Of a DNA stretch of 64,000 nucleotides, positions 23,201 to 53,056 are shown one piece after another; positions within the stretch are counted from its first letter, which is position 1, and every line of letters starts with the position of its first letter. The notes beneath the pieces were generated by a model, which searched no databases, was not told the origin of the DNA, and was given only the letters and a program-made list of their open reading frames with translations. Source of the stretch: Nemopilema nomurai (lineage: Eukaryota > Cnidaria > Scyphozoa > Rhizostomeae > Rhizostomatidae); NCBI GenBank assembly GCA_003864495.1, contig ML133454.1, positions 1,521,149 through 1,585,148 on the forward strand. Reading direction: 5' to 3'. The position numbers were made by a program, and so were the translations under genes.

Positions 23201-26200
23201 GATACACTTGCCTTTCCAGTCGCTGGCTTCAAATGTGGCGTCATAATAACAACACGAAACCGGACTGTGGAAAACGAAAATATGATTAGGATAGAATTAT
23301 TGGTCGAATAACGACGGGAGAACAAAATACAGAGATAAACTTTTAATAGAGACAATTAAAGGTGTGTGCATACATCTGAGGCAACACTAGTATGAGCACT
23401 GTCCTTCCCTATACCCACTCCTCATCTTCTGACCAATTCTTCTTCAAACTCAGTCCTTCTAATTTAGAGTAAGTGAATTCACAATTGCATGTGACCGGTC
23501 AGTTGATAAACACGTTGGTCAAGTTGTCACACTTGACGTAACTCGTGTAAGAATCAGGGAAGTCGGTGACTTGACTTTTCAACTAGCTTTATTGTGATGT
23601 GGAAATGGTGACTTCCTCGATTCTTGGGCGAATTACGAAAGGCGTGAAGCAGGCCTTTTCAATGCTTATGAAGGGGATTCCCGTGCATGCGACCAGGGGG
23701 ACGTACCTTTGTCACCAGGCTTGTACGCTGGCTTGTCTGTCTGGATAAACAGCGACTCGCCAATCCGCTCAATCTTTACATGTTGACTTTCCATGAAATT
23801 CACACCCCCGGATCCGGTTACGCTAAGCCTGCGACGTCCGACTTTTGCGTCATCTGGCACCTAATGTGGAGCGAAGCCACAAATCAAACGGTTGTGTCCC
23901 CAAATCATGGCTGATATCACATACACCCACACCCTCCTGTTATCACGCTTTCACTTTACCCCAAGTTCGGAGGAAACAAAGCTAGGAAAGTAGAGTTCAA
24001 AAACAAGATAACCAAAATACAAGGAAAAGTAAAGGTACGCATCCCCCACTAAATATAACCTTTAAAGACCACCACAATCGTTACCTATTTGGACAAGAGA
24101 CCAATTAACAGCAAAGGTTAAAGTTAGCAGCACTGATGTTTCATTTCTTATAAAAATTGAGCTAAGAAATTTTATCATATCCCATCAATTCAATACTTGA
24201 TTAATTTTGCTTCAAGCTGAATGCTAAACATTCCGGACATTTATCATAACCAAACATACAAGCAAAATTAAAACGAACCTCCAAAATAATGTCCTTTGGT
24301 TTGCCTTGAAAAAAAACGGTATATGATTAGAGACCTAAATGTTTCAAAAAACATGGATTTGCGCCTGTTGAAACCTAACCTCGAAGAGTGGGCCTAAATG
24401 AATTGGTGGCCACTTCTGGTGTTCAAAGATGACGTCAGGATCAAGTGTCCTATATCCAAGACTTCGTGATTGCACAACAATGGGGCAAAATATTCATATA
24501 TAATCTGCTTAAGCAATGCAATCCTGCTTCTGACTCAAATTTCACACAGTTCGTTTTGTTAGAAGTAGAGCCTATGAATTTGACGAAAAATGTTTTGCTT
24601 CTGATTGTAGTTTCAACTGTGGTAAGTGGGGGAATTCCTGTAAGTCTTTCAATACTCACCTGAATCCTCGGCTTGAAAAATTGTAGTTTTCTTCAAATTG
24701 ATGCCATTGCCCCAGTCTATACTTGTCACTACCACGGCCCTCTCCTTTAGATTGAACAACGTTGCAGAGAGCACCACATTGCTCCCTGTGCGGTACACAC
24801 CAGGGGACACAACAAGGTACCTTGAAAAAGGGGTGTAGGTGGATCAGAAGAGGGCGTTGGGGGTATCAAAGGGTAAGCATTGAGGAAGATCAAAGGCTAA
24901 GCATTGAGGAAGATCAAAGGGGAAGCATTGAGAGAGATCAAAGGGGAAGCTTTGAGGGAGATCAAAGGGGAAGCATTGAGGAAGATCAAAAGGGGAAGCA
25001 TTGAGGGATATCAAAGGGGAAGCGTTGAGGGAGATCAAAGAGTAAGCATCGAGGGAGATCATAGGCTAAGCATTGGGGGAGATCAAAGGGGAAGCGTTGA
25101 GAGGGAGCTCAGTAACACCAAAAATGCTGCGAGAAATAAAAAAGGGGAAGTTGATAGAAATATGAAAGGGAATTTTCTGAGAGAGCAAATGGGGAAAATT
25201 GGGGAAGGTCATAAAAGAGTGTGGATAGGAGGGCAAAACGGAAGATAAGAAAAATCAACATAAGAATTTAGGGAGGATAAGAGAATGGCTCGTTCTTTTG
25301 AAAACAAAAATAGATACTGCAAACATATACTTCTTTAGATAAAGTGATATTTTTAAATGTCTCGATATTCTTTTAATCGCTCTTCTTTATTGCCTGCCCT
25401 TAACACAGCAGATTAGAAAGGAAACCTTAGAATACTTTCTAATCAAACGACATTGATTAAGGTGTTGAAAGCATTTTTGTAGGGATGTAGAAACCCCACT
25501 AAGTTCAAAGTAATTAAAAAAAGTCTAAAATTCAAAACGAAGGGGAAAATCCGTTTTTGTCACAATTCAAGCAAAATGTCCACTTCAAAAAGATAACAGC
25601 ATGAATAATAAAAATCTTCAAAAACTCAATTTTGAAATCTCCGTTTATGTCGAAGTGTAAATAAGCTATTTATGAAAGAATGTCCAGGTAAGATTCAATG
25701 GCCCACTCTTTCACAATAGATTGTTGAAATTAACCGGAACAAGATCGGCTTAGACTGTAAAATATAAAATTACGCCAGTTTTATGGGAAATAAAGGAAAT
25801 AGGTGTTGAACTCCGTGACCGAAAAGCCACATTATAAGGCGCGTTTTCCCTAATGACGCACCAGTCTGGAACAGAAACCAGCATGTGCCCTGGGTATTGC
25901 GTCATTGTCTCTGTTCCACTATTTCCAACAATTTCCCGCCATTTATTTGACTGAGGGAAACTACAAAGAAGCTACATCATTAGACTCCTTGGAGGTTCCT
26001 CTGGGAAATTATTTTATTTCTCGCGAATGAAAGGTTGTTGATTTAAGCAAATTTAAGGTTGTGGACGTGTCTTGGTACAATTATTGACCAACCTGGCAGT
26101 TTTGATGGTATATTGTGTGTCAAGGCAAAAACACTTGGTGTGAAAGAGTGAGAGTTGGTGTGAAACAAAGCATGCGCGGCGGCTGAGCAAACAAGGGGTC

Positions 26201-29063: not shown

Positions 29064-30599
<1,536 letters not shown>

Positions 30600-42157: not shown

Positions 42158-44344
42158 TTAAGCACTACTAGTAGCACTGACTCTGCCATACCTCCAAGTG
42201 CAGCCCTCATAAAATTCTTCGACAATGGCCTTGACAATATCTTCGTCCTCAGCTGGTCCTTGCCAGGTCACAGAGACGTTCAACTGGGTTTTCGTCGCTT
42301 GTAAGCGCGAGACGCAACCAGACCACGTTGCGATCTTGGGATACAATGCTCCGTGTCTCTCTAGCAATGACGCTTGCTCCCTTTCTTTGATAGACAACTC
42401 GATGCCAAACTGAGCAAAAGACGCTGATTCCTTCAAGCTTTGGCCTCTGAAATGAAAGATCAGGAACGACTTAGAAACAAGCAATTGAGGTGATTCACGA
42501 TTGATCCCCCTTGGTTGTAGCTCTCCCATCAATCAAAGAGGGGGGGGGGGGATATATGCAGACCTCAATGTCAAAAAGCAGTGGCAAAGGTTCAACGAAG
42601 CAATAATAAGATGGGTGTAGAAACATGTTTCCAGTACCTTTGTCAGGCGCTGGTTTTGGCAAGGATATGGCAATAGAAGGGAGGTGTATGTGAAAAATTA
42701 CGAGCAACAAAATTCATACCTCTGATAGATATCTTCGATTGAGGTAACAGAGGGGATGTCTTCATTACTATTGACATTTGGTGGCAGAGCAGTAAATACA
42801 ACTTTCTCGTCTACTTCAATCCTAAAATGATCGATCAAGTCTGCCGAGCCACACTTAGCCACCAAGCAGCACTTCCAGTCCGAGGGCAACCTCCCTCCAA
42901 AAACATTGACGAAGGCAGCAGCATCCGGCTTGATGTATATTCCCAGCAAATCGCCGATGCATGACGAGTAATACCTGCAAATGCCCTCGTACTTCTTCAC
43001 CGGATCCTGAAACTGAGCCGACACGTGGAATGGAATGGTGAAGAAGCCATCTTTCGTCAGCCTCTGGAGCGATCCATTCTCACCAACAACATACAAAGTG
43101 GCCGAGGGGTATTCACCAAACGTGACAATATCACCAAACTTGAGCTCGATGCCGCATGCGACATCCTCGGCCTCAATGCTGTCAGGGAATGAGCCGCATT
43201 CAAAGGAGCCCCCGACCGACCTGCGATGTCGGCTGTCTCTGCTTTTGCAGCTCAGCTCGCTGTCGTCGCTTTCCATGCCTTCATTTGATGAAGCGAGGCA
43301 ATCGCAGCCATTCTTTATGCACCAACAGCATTCCGACTCGCTATGCTTCCTTACTCGATTTCCCACGTCAGCCGTCATCTTGTACAGTTTCGCGGGCTCC
43401 TGGTTATCTGCAACTGGAGACAGAGAGTCGCTCACCTTTGACTCTGCCACATCTATGTTCGGTTCGGGGTACACTTTAAGCAGAGAACGCAGGTCTGTTT
43501 CTTGGAATGAGCCATTGACCTCTCGAGGTAGCGTAGACATAGGGTACCTTCCTTTCATAACCAGATCATCATTATTGGCTAGGATGGCTGCAAGTTTGCG
43601 TGACTGGGTAAGAAGGACGTCAACAGAACTCCCAAAGATGAAAATGGAAGTATCCATTAGCTTTTTAGACAGGTCTGAAAGATCGAGATTTGTACCAGCT
43701 TTTGACAAATCGAACATCCCTTCGGCGTAAAGCGGATTGGCAGCTCTCTGTGTTACGGTGTCGTAGAGGTACCGAACATCGTCATCCCGTTTGTCTACAA
43801 AGATATCCAGGAAGTATTGGCACCCAGAACTCTGATGAAATTCATTCTTGACAGAATCCTTCACTGGGAGATCGAAACATAGCCTTATTCTGGTGAGGCG
43901 ACCAGCCTTGAGATCGTCGTCTGATGGCGAGAAAATCATTCTAATCTGTTGGTCAGAGGTCTGCTTGCCGACTGCAACTGTCCCATCTGGGGCAGTGTGC
44001 TTGAAGCGACAACTGGCACCGTAACGGCAACTCCCTTTTAGAAAGAATGCACACGTGTCTGCTGAAGACTCACGATCGTCCCCGGAAGAATGCGAAAACC
44101 GGCACTGACTGCCATACTTGCAATACCCTCGCTGGAAGAACTTGCACCGCTCGTTTGCTGCATTGCTCTTGTTTCTCCTGGCCATCTGGAACTGGCTTTC
44201 ATCTGGTACATCTGGGTCTGAGTAATAACCATTACTGTAGCTATTGTTCAGGTAGTTCAACCCGGTCATCTGGTCCCAGTAGAGCAATTGATTCAAGTCA
44301 TAGGCCTGCCCGAATGGGCTTCCTGGAACATTGAAGAACGACAT
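42158..44344 (-). CDS. CCCH-type zinc-finger protein, uncharacterised, 2 coding exons, 637 aa
   Basis: Exons 44344-42720 and 42446-42158 join in phase (CAGAG|GTATGA donor, TTTCAG|A acceptor). There are two tandem CCCH fingers near the N-terminus, both C-x7-C-x5-C-x3-H: C67/C75/C81/H85 (CKFFQRGYCKYGSQCRFSH) and C98/C106/C112/H116 (CAFFLKGSCRYGASCRFKH). Such fingers usually bind RNA. The region from about 130 to 270 (RIRLCFDLPVKDSV onward) and a C-terminal part with KFGDIVTFGEYPSATLYVVG look folded, but I cannot name either domain. A Cys-rich acidic stretch lies between them (about 350-390). The ATG at 44344 is chosen because TTTTCTAG|CGG just upstream looks like a splice acceptor, so the frame before it is intronic. 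Confidence 0.85.
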
Positions 44345-47343
44345 CGTTTGATCCGCTAGAAAACAAACAATAATCAAATGAATTAACGCATTTACCAGCT
44401 TATTTTCTGAGCGATATACTGCATACGTCGTCTGTATCTTTCGCCTTGTAAATGATGAAAAACCGAGGCATCTTGTAAATAAAGACTAGTAACACGTTGT
44501 AGTCTATTTTACTCTTAACCTCTGTTCTTCGATCCTTGACCTTTCTAATAGATACTTAACCTCCTTTTGGACTCTCCTTTGTTTGAGCATTAGCACATGC
44601 TATGAAACAAATCACGACCATTGGATTAACTTCTCACTTTCATTACCCATAGTTCACATTTCATTAAATCAAATGATTTGCCATGCAGCTCACAGAACGG
44701 CTCTAACTTTTATTGGATCATTTGTCTGCAAAGCACTTCCATAGCAGGAAACATCAGACTTTGATGGGATGTTACACAGATCCTGCAGTTAACTATTAAA
44801 TGGCAGATTTCAACCATATCCGTAATGAAATGAATGCAAGGAACATCAGAGTATTTCAGACTAATACCAGTGTCCGGTAATTCTAATTCAAATTAATCTA
44901 TTTTTACTAATGATCGAGGTATCAATAATTTTTCTTTAGCAAGACATAACTCTACCTGTTTTATCTTTCAACAAATGGCAATGCTGCCAATTGTAGTGTT
45001 GCAGGTTGCATTTTTTAAGGTCTTTTCAGTAGTGGGGTATTTCTCAAAAGTGACAACAATCATAGCAATGAATTTTACGGTGCTTCAAATTGTAATAAGC
45101 TTCCGGTTTTACTAAAATTCCAGTTGTTGTTGCAACAGCTAAATGGGATGCATTACATAATACTTGTAGACATCTATTTGGCTAAGATTTGCTCATGCCA
45201 AGGACATTGGCTGAATAAAGTAAAAAAAATAGCTTTTTTTGAGGAATTGTAATAATGGGGTTTGTAACCTAACTGAAAACCATTGCTCTACATGGTCACC
45301 TGAACGGTTTTGATATGCAGTTGTCAAGTTGGCAAGGACAAGTTGGTAAGCAGCAGAGAGCATTTTAACTGAATGTTCTAAAATTGGAGAGATGAGCCTG
45401 CGTCTATAAGGCAGAATTAGAGGACCTCTTAGGAATTAGACAACGTTGACCAATCCAGCTTTAGAAGTTTTGTAGGGCACACTAAAAAGGTTGCATAGTA
45501 TTTTTTAACATTTGAAAAACACAATAGGGACTCCATTTGTCACTATTGTTATCATATTTCAAGTGTTAGTGCTTGGGGCCCCATTTCACCAAAAAGCCTT
45601 GTTGACATAACTACCAGCACATCCTTTTGAAAGGACCCCACAATGACCCAGGCACTAGGAGCATAAAGAGAATTTTGGTGGTCAGTGGAGGGGAAAGTGG
45701 AAGGGCCTGGTGGGGAAACTGGAGTAAAATGCCTACTAGGTAGCATTACAAAAAAAATATAAGCTATTGTTTAACTGTTACTGCTTTAAGTTTGAGGTCT
45801 GTTGATAGCTACTGCAACAAATTTGTTTGATGTTTTAGCATGGAAGCTTGAAAAAGCAGTATTTGTGTACTTAACCCCCACATATGTCCACCTTATTCAT
45901 ACAAAATTTTAAAGAAAAGCATTTGCCATCAATAACTAGGAAAGGTATGTTAGGTAACAACCAAACTATTTGTCATATTGATTAAAGAGGATAGCCCAGC
46001 TTATTGTTAAAAATATTTCAATTTACAGAATCAGTTTTCCTTCTATATATATTTGTTTGAAAAAGGACTGTTAAATTGTTGCTAGGCAAAATATTCTTAT
46101 ATTCTTTTAACTCATTAAAAGCGCAAAAAGACAATAGGGCCAGCAAAACTGGGGAGACAGCCCCCACTTTTTTTAGAGCAAAATATTTTTCAAAGGCCAC
46201 GTAGAAGGAAATAGGAAGATCAAAATATTCACATTTTGCCCCCACCCCTTACACAAATTACCGACCCTTGACAAGGAAAATCTACTTCTGTGAAAGGAAG
46301 GCTCCATTGACAATGTGTCAATTAAGAACATAAAGTTATGTTTCAAAGCAGTAATTTGGTTCTTGCCACTTTTTGCAGTTGTTGCAACTTTGTATTTATT
46401 GTAGACATTTGGTGATGTGCCGCTAACGCAAACTTCCACACAATTTACCATTTTTGTTTTCATTTTTTGATAAAGGAAAGTTGGTTTTGCTGGACAAAGG
46501 CTGTTTGTGACTTTAACGAAGAAGCACAAAAGAGAGGTGTTAATGTCACGTGATAAAAAGTCCAACCGCATTGCAAACAGCGTTGTGCTAATTACGGCTG
46601 GCATCCAACTGTGCTGAAGTTTCCAACAGTGAATGTCACCTAAACCATGAAACTTCCAAGCCATACTTTCACCAGTACCCTCCCAGATAAAGCACTTGCT
46701 GGGAAGCAAAAATATAGCAAGTTCCAATGAAATAATTTTACGTGCGCATGCACCAGCTTCACCTATCCTGTTTACTTGCAATCCTCATCCGGTGTAGAAG
46801 TTACTTTTGGATGAACATGGACCACGCATGGTCATATGCTCTGGAAAATTTATATTAGTTAGAAAAAAGCTTCTATTTGACGCCTTGGGGATCTTTTCTT
46901 GACTTTGTTGGGCCTTGGTATCAATGAACTTACCTACGCCCCTCTGGACAGCTCCAAAAAAAAATTTGAATTTTGAACCGTTCGTGAATGTGAATTTGCC
47001 TCCACATCGCGATTAGAAAATAAACTCTGTGTAATCAATAACTACAAAAGCCAGCCAACAGCAATGGCAAATAATAAACAGGCATGAAAACAAAAAGGAT
47101 GTCGACATACCTAACCTTTAAACTTTCGCGTGCCTTCTGACTCACAACAACTTTCACCTTTTGACGCACGTGCGAAGTAAACATACCAGCCTCGATTTCA
47201 AGCATTGGCCGAGGAAGGGGACGTCTCCCAAGAGGAAATAATGATATTGTGTATTTTTCAAAGAAATAATTCAAAGTTATAAAAAAGAAATGAATACAGC
47301 CATAAAATTTACGCAAATTTAGTAGTTTTACAAAAATTTTCAA
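44345..47343. other. CCCH gene 5' intron and probable leader exon
   Basis: An acceptor (TTTGTTTTCTAG) lies about 13 bp before the CCCH start codon, so the gene needs an upstream exon. On the minus strand, about 47110-47260 is less AT-rich, contains CpGs and ends in GTTTAAAG|GTTAGG, a plausible donor; it is the best candidate for a 5' UTR exon. In between, a 202-codon minus-strand open frame without an ATG start (46173-46781) contains WEGTGESMAWKFHGLGDIHC. This is probably repeat-derived and not a gene. Confidence 0.4.
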
Positions 47344-49208: not shown

Positions 49209-50380
49209 ATGGAGCACCTATCTCACATTGTTATAAAATGTGTAGGAACACTGATTTTGTTCATTATGACTATAATTTTTGGAATAATCCCGCTGATGGT
49301 GTTTCGTTCACCACGAAACTCAGTAGGTGCTCGGAGAAGGAAGAAACTTATTATAGGCTGCTGCAACTGTTTTGCAGGAGGTGTATTCTTCAGTGTCTGC
49401 TTGTTGGACTTGCTTCCATCTGTAAGGAGCAAGATGACGAGTGCATTGCTGGAGGTTAATGTCTCGACAACATTTCCACTCGGTGAAGCAATAGCTGCTG
49501 TCGGTTTCATTTTAATGGTCATGTCAGAAATACTTGTGCATGCTATAGGGAAGGACAGCTGGCTGATGGACCACCAGCATAACCATGACGAAGAGATGCA
49601 CGAAAATGACGAAGTTCAGCCTCTTATGAATGATGAACAGTCTCAGGGCTATGGATCCGGGAAAGCAATACTGTCAACAAAAATACTCCTGTGGTTATTA
49701 ATGGGAATGGTGGCGAAGGCTCAAACGGTAGAGATCTAGATTCGAGGCCGGGTAGCCCTGGGATTGATGATGAGGACATAGTGTTTGAAGGGAATTTTAC
49801 CCCGCGCTTGAGGCGTTCAAGGTCAATTCATAGCATTGCCTCTGTGAACACAGTAACCCATTCATCATTCAGAATGTATGTATTGATTATGGCCTTGTCA
49901 CTGCACTCTCTTTTTGAAGGCCTTAGTGTTGGCTTGATCACTGATATTGACACCCTAATTCAGCTTCTGGTTGCCTTATTGTTGCATAAAAGTATAATTT
50001 CTTTTGCTCTTGGAGTAAAGTTGGTTGATGGTGGCTTAAGGGTAAGAACTGTTGTTAAAGGTGTAATTCTTTTTGCTGCTATGGCTCCATGTGGAGTAGG
50101 AGTTGGCCTTGCTGTTCTGAATTCATTCTCAAGAGTTGCAAGTTTGTTTTGCTCTGGCATTCTGCAGGGTTTGGCAACAGGGTCATTTTTCTATGTCACA
50201 TTTTTTGAAATTCTTCCTGAGGAGTTCACCATGCAGAGTCGCAACAAAGGCTCAAAAGTCCTTTTTGTTATCATTGGCTTCCTGATTATCACAGGCATGT
50301 GTTATTATGAGAATCAGTTTCATGGAATCAAGAAAGTGATGCCACACGTCATTGCTCCAACAACACCCTCAATACACTAA
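49209..50380 (+). CDS. ZIP zinc transporter (SLC39A1/2/3 type), intronless, with a one-base frame break
   Basis: Plasma-membrane Zn2+ importer of the ZIP family, subfamily of SLC39A1-3. The N-terminal part begins MEHLSHIVIKCVGTLILFIM with TM1, then GCCNCFAGGVFFSVCLLDLLP (TM2) and LGEAIAAVGFILMVMSEILV (TM3). A His-rich cytoplasmic loop follows (HQHNHDEEMH, the usual metal-sensing loop). The C-terminal part has HSLFEGLSVGL (TM4, metal-site His), HKSIISFALGVKL (TM5) and GLATGSFFYVTFFEILPEEF (TM6-7). The two parts lie in different frames. The first runs to a stop at 49737-49739; the second is open from 49637. One base is missing somewhere in 49637-49737; the A5 run at 49679-49683 is the likeliest place. 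The intact length would be about 390 aa, normal for the family. Confidence 0.88.
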
Positions 50381-52594: not shown

Positions 52595-52607
52595 TTTAAT
52601 AGATACA

Positions 52608-52688
52608 ATAACAGGACAAAATGTTATCAAGTTGGAGGACTTCCATCCTGAGATGTCTTTTTCCACCAACTTTCATTATCTGTCTTGA
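52608..52688 (-). promoter_or_regulatory. SECIS element (Form 2-like) in the UPF0729 3' UTR
   Basis: It lies 47 nt after the TAA when the quartet is the reference point. On the minus strand the 5' quartet ATGA (52676-52673) and the 3' TGAT (52629-52626) flank helix II: AGTTGGTGG (52671-52663) against CCTCCAACT (52638-52630), eight Watson-Crick pairs with one U-U. The conserved unpaired A run (AAAAA, 52662-52658) begins 10 nt after ATGA. A second mini-hairpin, CATC-TCAG-GATG (52655-52644), caps the apical loop as in Form 2 SECIS elements. Below the quartet, AGACA and TGTC(C) can form helix I. An ATTAAA poly(A)-type signal follows at 52600-52595, so the element would be within the mRNA. Confidence 0.8.
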
Positions 52689-52722
52689 TGAAGTAGCGTC
52701 AGGTTTCCGTCAGTTTTCTTTT

Positions 52723-53056
52723 TTAATTCACAGCATCGGAACCTGATTCTTGTGATGCTGAAATTGTGGCTTTATCCATCCTTTGCTTATCGCTGTCCTT
52801 GTCCTGCAAAACATATGACCGCATCGTATCAAATAAAACATTTACTTAAAGTTTATATATACATTTAGTAAATTTCTGACAAAACACTTTTTAAGAAAAG
52901 GAGAATAAGAATCTAACAGCGATTTACAATTGATTCCTGGCTTGTGTCCGAAGCAATGGGCTTCTTTTTCTGAAACCATAGGTCGACGAAGGGCTGGATG
53001 AATTTATGCCAAATGTACAGCAGCAATGGCACAACAATGCAGCTTACTCATACCAT
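52723..53056 (-). CDS. C18orf32: UPF0729/C18orf32 homologue with in-frame TGA at residue 3 (putative selenoprotein), 69 aa
   Basis: Two coding exons: 53056-52928 (43 codons) and 52803-52723 (26 codons plus TAA), joined in phase (ATT|GTAAAT, TTTTGCAG|GAC). The protein starts M-V-[TGA]-V-S-C-I-V-V-P-L-L-L-Y-I-W-H-K-F-I and continues QPFVDLWFQKKKPIASD. This matches the UPF0729 N-terminus, where vertebrate members begin MVCIPCIVIP: a C-x-x-C pair inside a short hydrophobic hairpin linked to the ER and lipid droplets. The TGA (53050-53048) sits exactly at the first Cys. No other ATG occurs before exon 2, and the rest of the frame is clean, so a dead gene or later start is unlikely. The 3' UTR holds a SECIS-like fold (see separate entry). 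Read as Sec3, the motif is U-x-x-C. The function of the family is poorly known. Confidence 0.82.

Follow-up and report, generated by a model that had tools for sequence, protein, structure and literature searches.

We report a predicted gene of the UPF0729/C18orf32 family in Nemopilema nomurai that very probably encodes a selenoprotein: its third codon is a UGA, which a SECIS element in the 3' flank is predicted to recode as selenocysteine (Sec). The gene lies in the 64,000-nt stretch of DNA analysed here as a whole (the window), and the assembly holding the window comprises 213 Mb. The predicted protein begins MVUVSC, so that Sec would stand unusually near the start codon. A sequence-only reading had proposed an undescribed UPF0729 selenoprotein with a U-x-x-C motif, and this proposal is well supported: the homology and the SECIS speak for it, as do the genome's Sec machinery and GPx genes and the TGA in a second copy of exon 1. 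Its description of the protein as a membrane hairpin, on the other hand, found no support: AlphaFold gives one helix, with modest confidence.

Gene model and the TGA at codon 3

On the minus strand, the sequence from position 53056 reads ATG GTA TGA GTA AGC TGC ATT GTT, with AAG directly before the ATG. The predicted gene comprises two exons and 69 codons including the TGA; when the TGA is read through, 43 codons lie in exon 1 and 26 more precede the TAA. The predicted product is MVUVSCIVVPLLLYIWHKFIQPFVDLWFQKKKPIASDTSQESIDKDSDKQRMDKATISASQESGSDAVN. The intact frame with a single intron that had been claimed earlier was thus recovered as a gene prediction, the intron having a weak donor site (ATT/GTAAAT), which we count against the Sec reading. 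If this intron were left unspliced, the frame would stop after 47 codons, while the TGA and the downstream SECIS would be unaffected. An in-frame TAA stands seven codons before the ATG, and codon 52 is the only other in-frame ATG; hence no start codon both skips the TGA and retains the conserved part, in agreement with the earlier claim that an alternative ATG is lacking. The features of the gene and of its second copy are given in Table 1.

Table 1. Features of the predicted UPF0729 gene and of the related copy of its first exon. Positions are those of the window unless another locus is named.
Feature	Position	Strand	Remarks
Exon 1 (start codon, codon-3 TGA, conserved N-terminal helix of UPF0729)	52928..53056	-	PF14975 match, residues 2-25
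In-frame TGA, codon 3, predicted selenocysteine	53048..53050	-	Cys in 237/240 relatives listed
TGC, codon 6, resolving Cys of predicted U-x-x-C	53039..53041	-	
Predicted intron, GT-AG, 124 nt, weak donor	52804..52927	-	
Exon 2 coding part, terminated by TAA	52723..52803	-	
SECIS core: ATGA, 11 nt, AAAA, mini-stem, TGAT	52626..52676	-	Lower stem about 52604-52698
ATTAAA, possible polyadenylation signal just past SECIS	52595..52600	-	Consensus only
Decayed copy of exon 1 (L053)	L053 1433-1621, contig C88 near 1100450	+	PF14975 search, exon-1 query

In the vicinity, a gene runs from 53259 to at least 60265 on the plus strand, which we take to be MAP2K5-like, with PB1-like and kinase-like exon pieces recognised by eye; it is divergent from the UPF0729 gene, their start codons being about 200 nt apart, and its joined first piece gave no Pfam match. 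A ZIP zinc transporter exon (49637-50380, plus strand; PF02535, 122.4 bits) is convergent with the UPF0729 gene. Farther off, the minus strand holds long zinc-finger frames at 42698-44485 (CCCH type, 595 aa) and 29064-30599 (C2HC type with four stretches, 511 aa), and a tandem repeat of about 10 copies of 24 bp, partly open as a peptide repeat, spans 24865-25101.

Membership in the UPF0729/C18orf32 family

With the TGA taken as Cys, the window protein scored 36.4 bits against PF14975 (DUF4512; gathering cut-off 27). The coding sequence runs on in frame past the TGA and the family match survives its masking, the score with X in place of the TGA being 29.9 bits, above the cut-off. Run against the genome itself, the profile gave 32.4 bits for the window gene. 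PF14975-domain matches carry the names UPF0729/C18orf32 in public records, and the named family matches among those listed in both protein searches are animal proteins.

Relatives were collected by two protein searches (the best 120 of 431 matches and the best 120 of 321, the second query being partly artificial) in databases of predicted proteins, from which the frequency of a Sec form cannot be read. C-x-x-C was present in all 230 relatives fitting an anchored pattern; a looser pattern had been replaced by this one, sequences with N-terminal extensions having been misaligned. Among the remaining 10 of the 240 listed, seven have C-x-x-C by eye and three (P0064, P0068 and P0090) are without the N-terminus. 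The listed homologues confirm that codon 3 corresponds to the first Cys of the C-x-x-C, as the sequence-only reading held, and that vertebrates have the Cys form.

In an alignment of 15 sequences, with the window TGA entered as Cys, M1, V2, C3, C6, I7, P10, L13, F19 and P22 were invariant. The window protein is like the family in its initial Met-Val, its hydrophobic N-terminal helix, the second Cys and the invariant I7, P10, L13, F19 and P22, whereas the gene differs by the TGA in place of the first Cys and by the SECIS in its 3' flank. Moreover, the FWNPW stretch seen in many invertebrate relatives is missing, which we count against the Sec reading, and the tail is divergent. The window gene lacks the two-cysteine N-terminal C-x-x-C, its first Cys codon being TGA, and on its Pfam match would be a Sec variant of UPF0729/C18orf32 rather than a typical member, with U-x-x-C if Sec is decoded.

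The spliced window protein used as query in a single-protein search gave no candidate. Viral contigs scanned for the family motifs yielded no relative, and none appeared with patterns from the window's own tail, which are hardly able to detect relatives. A single match in the genome contigs collection (L046), without a Pfam match, was judged unrelated.

A candidate SECIS element in the 3' flank

The SECIS core begins 46 nt past the stop codon, that is, 247 nt past the UGA in the predicted mRNA, and six more polyadenylation-type hexamers besides the one in Table 1 lie within 600 nt of the stop. We searched for ATGA or GTGA followed by a helix of at least 7 pairs, with an unpaired AA 9-13 nt on, and then [TC]GA. 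Only three such structures were found on both strands of the 64-kb window, with energies of -14.6, -7.3 and -7.3 kcal/mol; that at 52676-52626 is the strongest and the sole one with ATGA. When the 500-nt 3' flank was simulated 40,000 times with a Markov model, 250 of the copies gave any match and 7 an equally strong one. Likewise, 200 simulated windows, both strands taken together, gave 314 matches, of which 6 were of the ATGA type at -14.6 or below (12 including GTGA). A small background of real sequence (12 arbitrary regions of 9.9 kb) contained two matches, at -10.4 and -7.3.

The predicted fold of the SECIS with its flanks shows a lower stem, the quartet bulge, helix II, the AAAA and a mini-stem. 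Taken whole, the 121-nt piece has an unremarkable stability (z -1.17), which 27 of 200 shuffled sequences matched; the evidence for the SECIS is therefore the arrangement of its motifs. Rfam SECIS_1 gave no match at this element, which counts against it; genome-wide, with 133 of 4955 candidates scored, the same model listed no GPx SECIS either. Its sole genome match (26.4 bits, cut-off 35) was regarded as a chance one, lying inside a long open frame that looks retrotransposon-like by eye. Overall, the earlier claim of a SECIS fold in the 3' flank is upheld by the core motif, the fold and the low chance rate, and not by Rfam SECIS_1.

Sec machinery and other selenoprotein genes

Two tRNA-Sec genes scored above the Rfam cut-off and were called tRNA-SeC by ARAGORN; they lie on different contigs (L002 and L003) with an equal score of 77.7 bits. 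For the SEPSECS family, five exon matches were found on one contig, with a model that also matched the control Bacillus subtilis, where the enzyme is not expected. The tRNA-Sec genes together with the SEPSECS family match suggest that the genome encodes the Sec machinery.

Of 8 GPx matches in the genome, we analysed three genes, leaving out one match on C36 with mixed stops and one on C86 without stops. All three have an in-frame TGA (L024, L025 and L026, in the contexts NVASFUG, NVASFUG and NTASLUG, respectively). The energy scanner placed a SECIS at 5545-5593 of L025 (-13.1) and at 4240-4283 of L026 (-8.8), and found none after L024 or over four Rdx regions, which need not encode Sec; we count both results against the Sec reading. 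We preferred this energy scan because a relaxed helix scan picked up numerous structures near the Rdx loci as well. Rdx had 4 matches in the genome, 3 of them over the cut-off, and Sep15/SelM had 2, both below it.

A decayed second copy of exon 1 that shares the TGA

A PF14975 search of the genome returned two matches only, the window gene and L053, which lies on the same contig about 0.47 Mb off and scores 22.0 bits, below the cut-off. Exon 1 as query gave the same two matches, with L053 at 61% identity (E 2.6e-7); human-protein and DNA queries did not reach this copy. Compared with the window DNA, L053 is identical at 142 of 191 positions (74%), in an alignment that takes in exon 1, some of the 5' flank and the start of the intron. 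It is decayed: GTC stands in place of the ATG, codon 11 is a TGA, and the frame is broken by a 1-nt gap. Of the 30 codons preceding this gap, 4 differ silently from those of the window gene and 10 differ by a changed residue or a stop. No match to exon 2 was found at L053, nor was a SECIS like that of the window found near it, loosened settings giving one unrelated match 1.4 kb away. The window gene is thus the only intact UPF0729/C18orf32 family gene found in the genome.

Codons 2 and 3 of L053 are nevertheless still GTA-TGA, and its codon 6 is still TGC. Given that this diverged copy of the same genome has the same codon-3 TGA, we consider the TGA to be old and not an assembly error, and since L053 decayed while the window copy did not, the window gene is apparently not dead. 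Most simply, the TGA would predate the duplication, after which one copy decayed and the other stayed intact; the identity of the TGA in the two copies may also have arisen by gene conversion.

Alternative explanations

The gene could be of the ordinary Cys form, its TGA reflecting a mistake in the assembly or a rare allele and its SECIS-like hairpin having arisen by chance. The TGA of the window gene is seen in one assembly, and a single base separates TGA from TGC or TGT; yet with L053 the error would be needed twice, and a hairpin this strong was as rare in the simulated flanks as reported above, which makes such an explanation very unlikely. Somewhat less improbable, and still very unlikely, is that the gene had already been inactivated by the TGA when it was duplicated and that both copies are pseudogenes. 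L053 is plainly decayed, and no intact Cys copy was found in the genome, and the family may therefore be on its way to loss in this lineage. A dead gene would be expected to decay like L053, however, and while L053 lost its start and frame, the window copy has retained its start, frame, conserved residues and SECIS.

The TGA might instead be spliced out, an upstream exon supplying the Cys and being joined just past the TGA. Donor-like GTATGAGT and GTAAGC are present around the TGA, and there is an AG at 53047, but the pyrimidine tract at this AG is poor (7/15), the Met-Val of the family is encoded exactly by ATG-GTA, and the SECIS would be left unexplained; we hold splicing of this kind to be highly improbable. 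Near-cognate readthrough of UGA and decoding of UGA as Cys both exist, and the codon-3 UGA could be read in one of these ways rather than as Sec. The SECIS and the Sec machinery make Sec insertion the simpler route, and we regard such a reading as the least probable of all.

Proposed mechanism and comparison with known selenoproteins

For the favoured reading, in which codon 3 specifies Sec, we infer the transcript, the decoding of the UGA, the redox cycle and the location. With eEFSec and Sec-tRNA recruited to the ribosome through a SECIS-binding protein, Sec would be inserted by the standard eukaryotic mechanism at position 3 (MVUVSC...), the UGA being recoded at the second elongation step under the control of a single compact SECIS some 250 nt further on. 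The AlphaFold model, made from exon 1 and 23 homologues, has its one helix at residues 4-30 (mean pLDDT 70.4, pTM 0.38), and residues 1-15 are strongly hydrophobic (mean 2.69). U3 and C6 would accordingly be placed at the helix N-terminus, the two forming a U-x-x-C pair where a hydrophobic helix begins. U-x-x-C proteins cycle between selenenylsulfide and selenol/thiol, and by analogy the Sec3/Cys6 pair would have a redox role of this type, exerted at the ER or lipid-droplet membrane. C18orf32 is listed as a lipid-droplet protein in the available part of one study (PMC9213792) and, in that of another, among the GPI-anchor biosynthesis genes mutated in neurodevelopmental disease (PMC10940682).

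As far as the accessible text of PMC3737529 goes, some selenoproteins are sensitive to where the UGA lies, a dependence set by the SECIS, and the most N-terminal natural Sec described there is position 9 of Euplotes SelW, which is used less well than position 85. By analogy with this protein, insertion of Sec so close to the start may be poor, a point that we count against the Sec reading.

SELENOW, SELENOT and SELENOM are eukaryotic U-x-x-C selenoproteins, and the window gene has the predicted U-x-x-C and the TGA with a 3' SECIS in common with them; it is unlike them in that one helix and no thioredoxin fold is predicted, that Sec is at residue 3 and that the family is unrelated. SELENOK and SELENOS are small single-helix ER selenoproteins, to which the window protein, with one hydrophobic helix predicted here, is likened by description and not by sequence; their Sec is near the C-terminus, whereas here it would be residue 3. 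In the available portion of a survey of six invertebrates, sponge AphC-like proteins are the sole novel selenoproteins named (PMC3473315), and on that account novel families of selenoproteins seem to be found only rarely in animals. These sponge proteins likewise have a narrow known distribution within a mainly Cys family, while their fold is thioredoxin-like and their sequence is unrelated to the window protein (PMC3473315). We found no report of UPF0729/C18orf32/DUF4512 as a selenoprotein in a partial body of literature that excluded preprints, the co-mentions of C18orf32 and selenoproteins that we examined being coincidental.

The wider proposition, that the gene founds a new family of animal selenoproteins in which Sec is residue 3, its product being a microprotein of the ER or lipid droplets that uses the U-x-x-C at its helix N-terminus for selenium-dependent redox catalysis, stands at about even chances. 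Where Sec replaces Cys, the position is usually a catalytic redox site, and the window gene would thus give a clue to what the C-x-x-C of C18orf32 does: if the reading is true, the conserved C-x-x-C of the human protein would be revealed as a redox site. Moreover, the codon-3 UGA would offer a natural test of how early after initiation Sec can enter a protein, and of the SECIS-governed position dependence described in the available text of PMC3737529.
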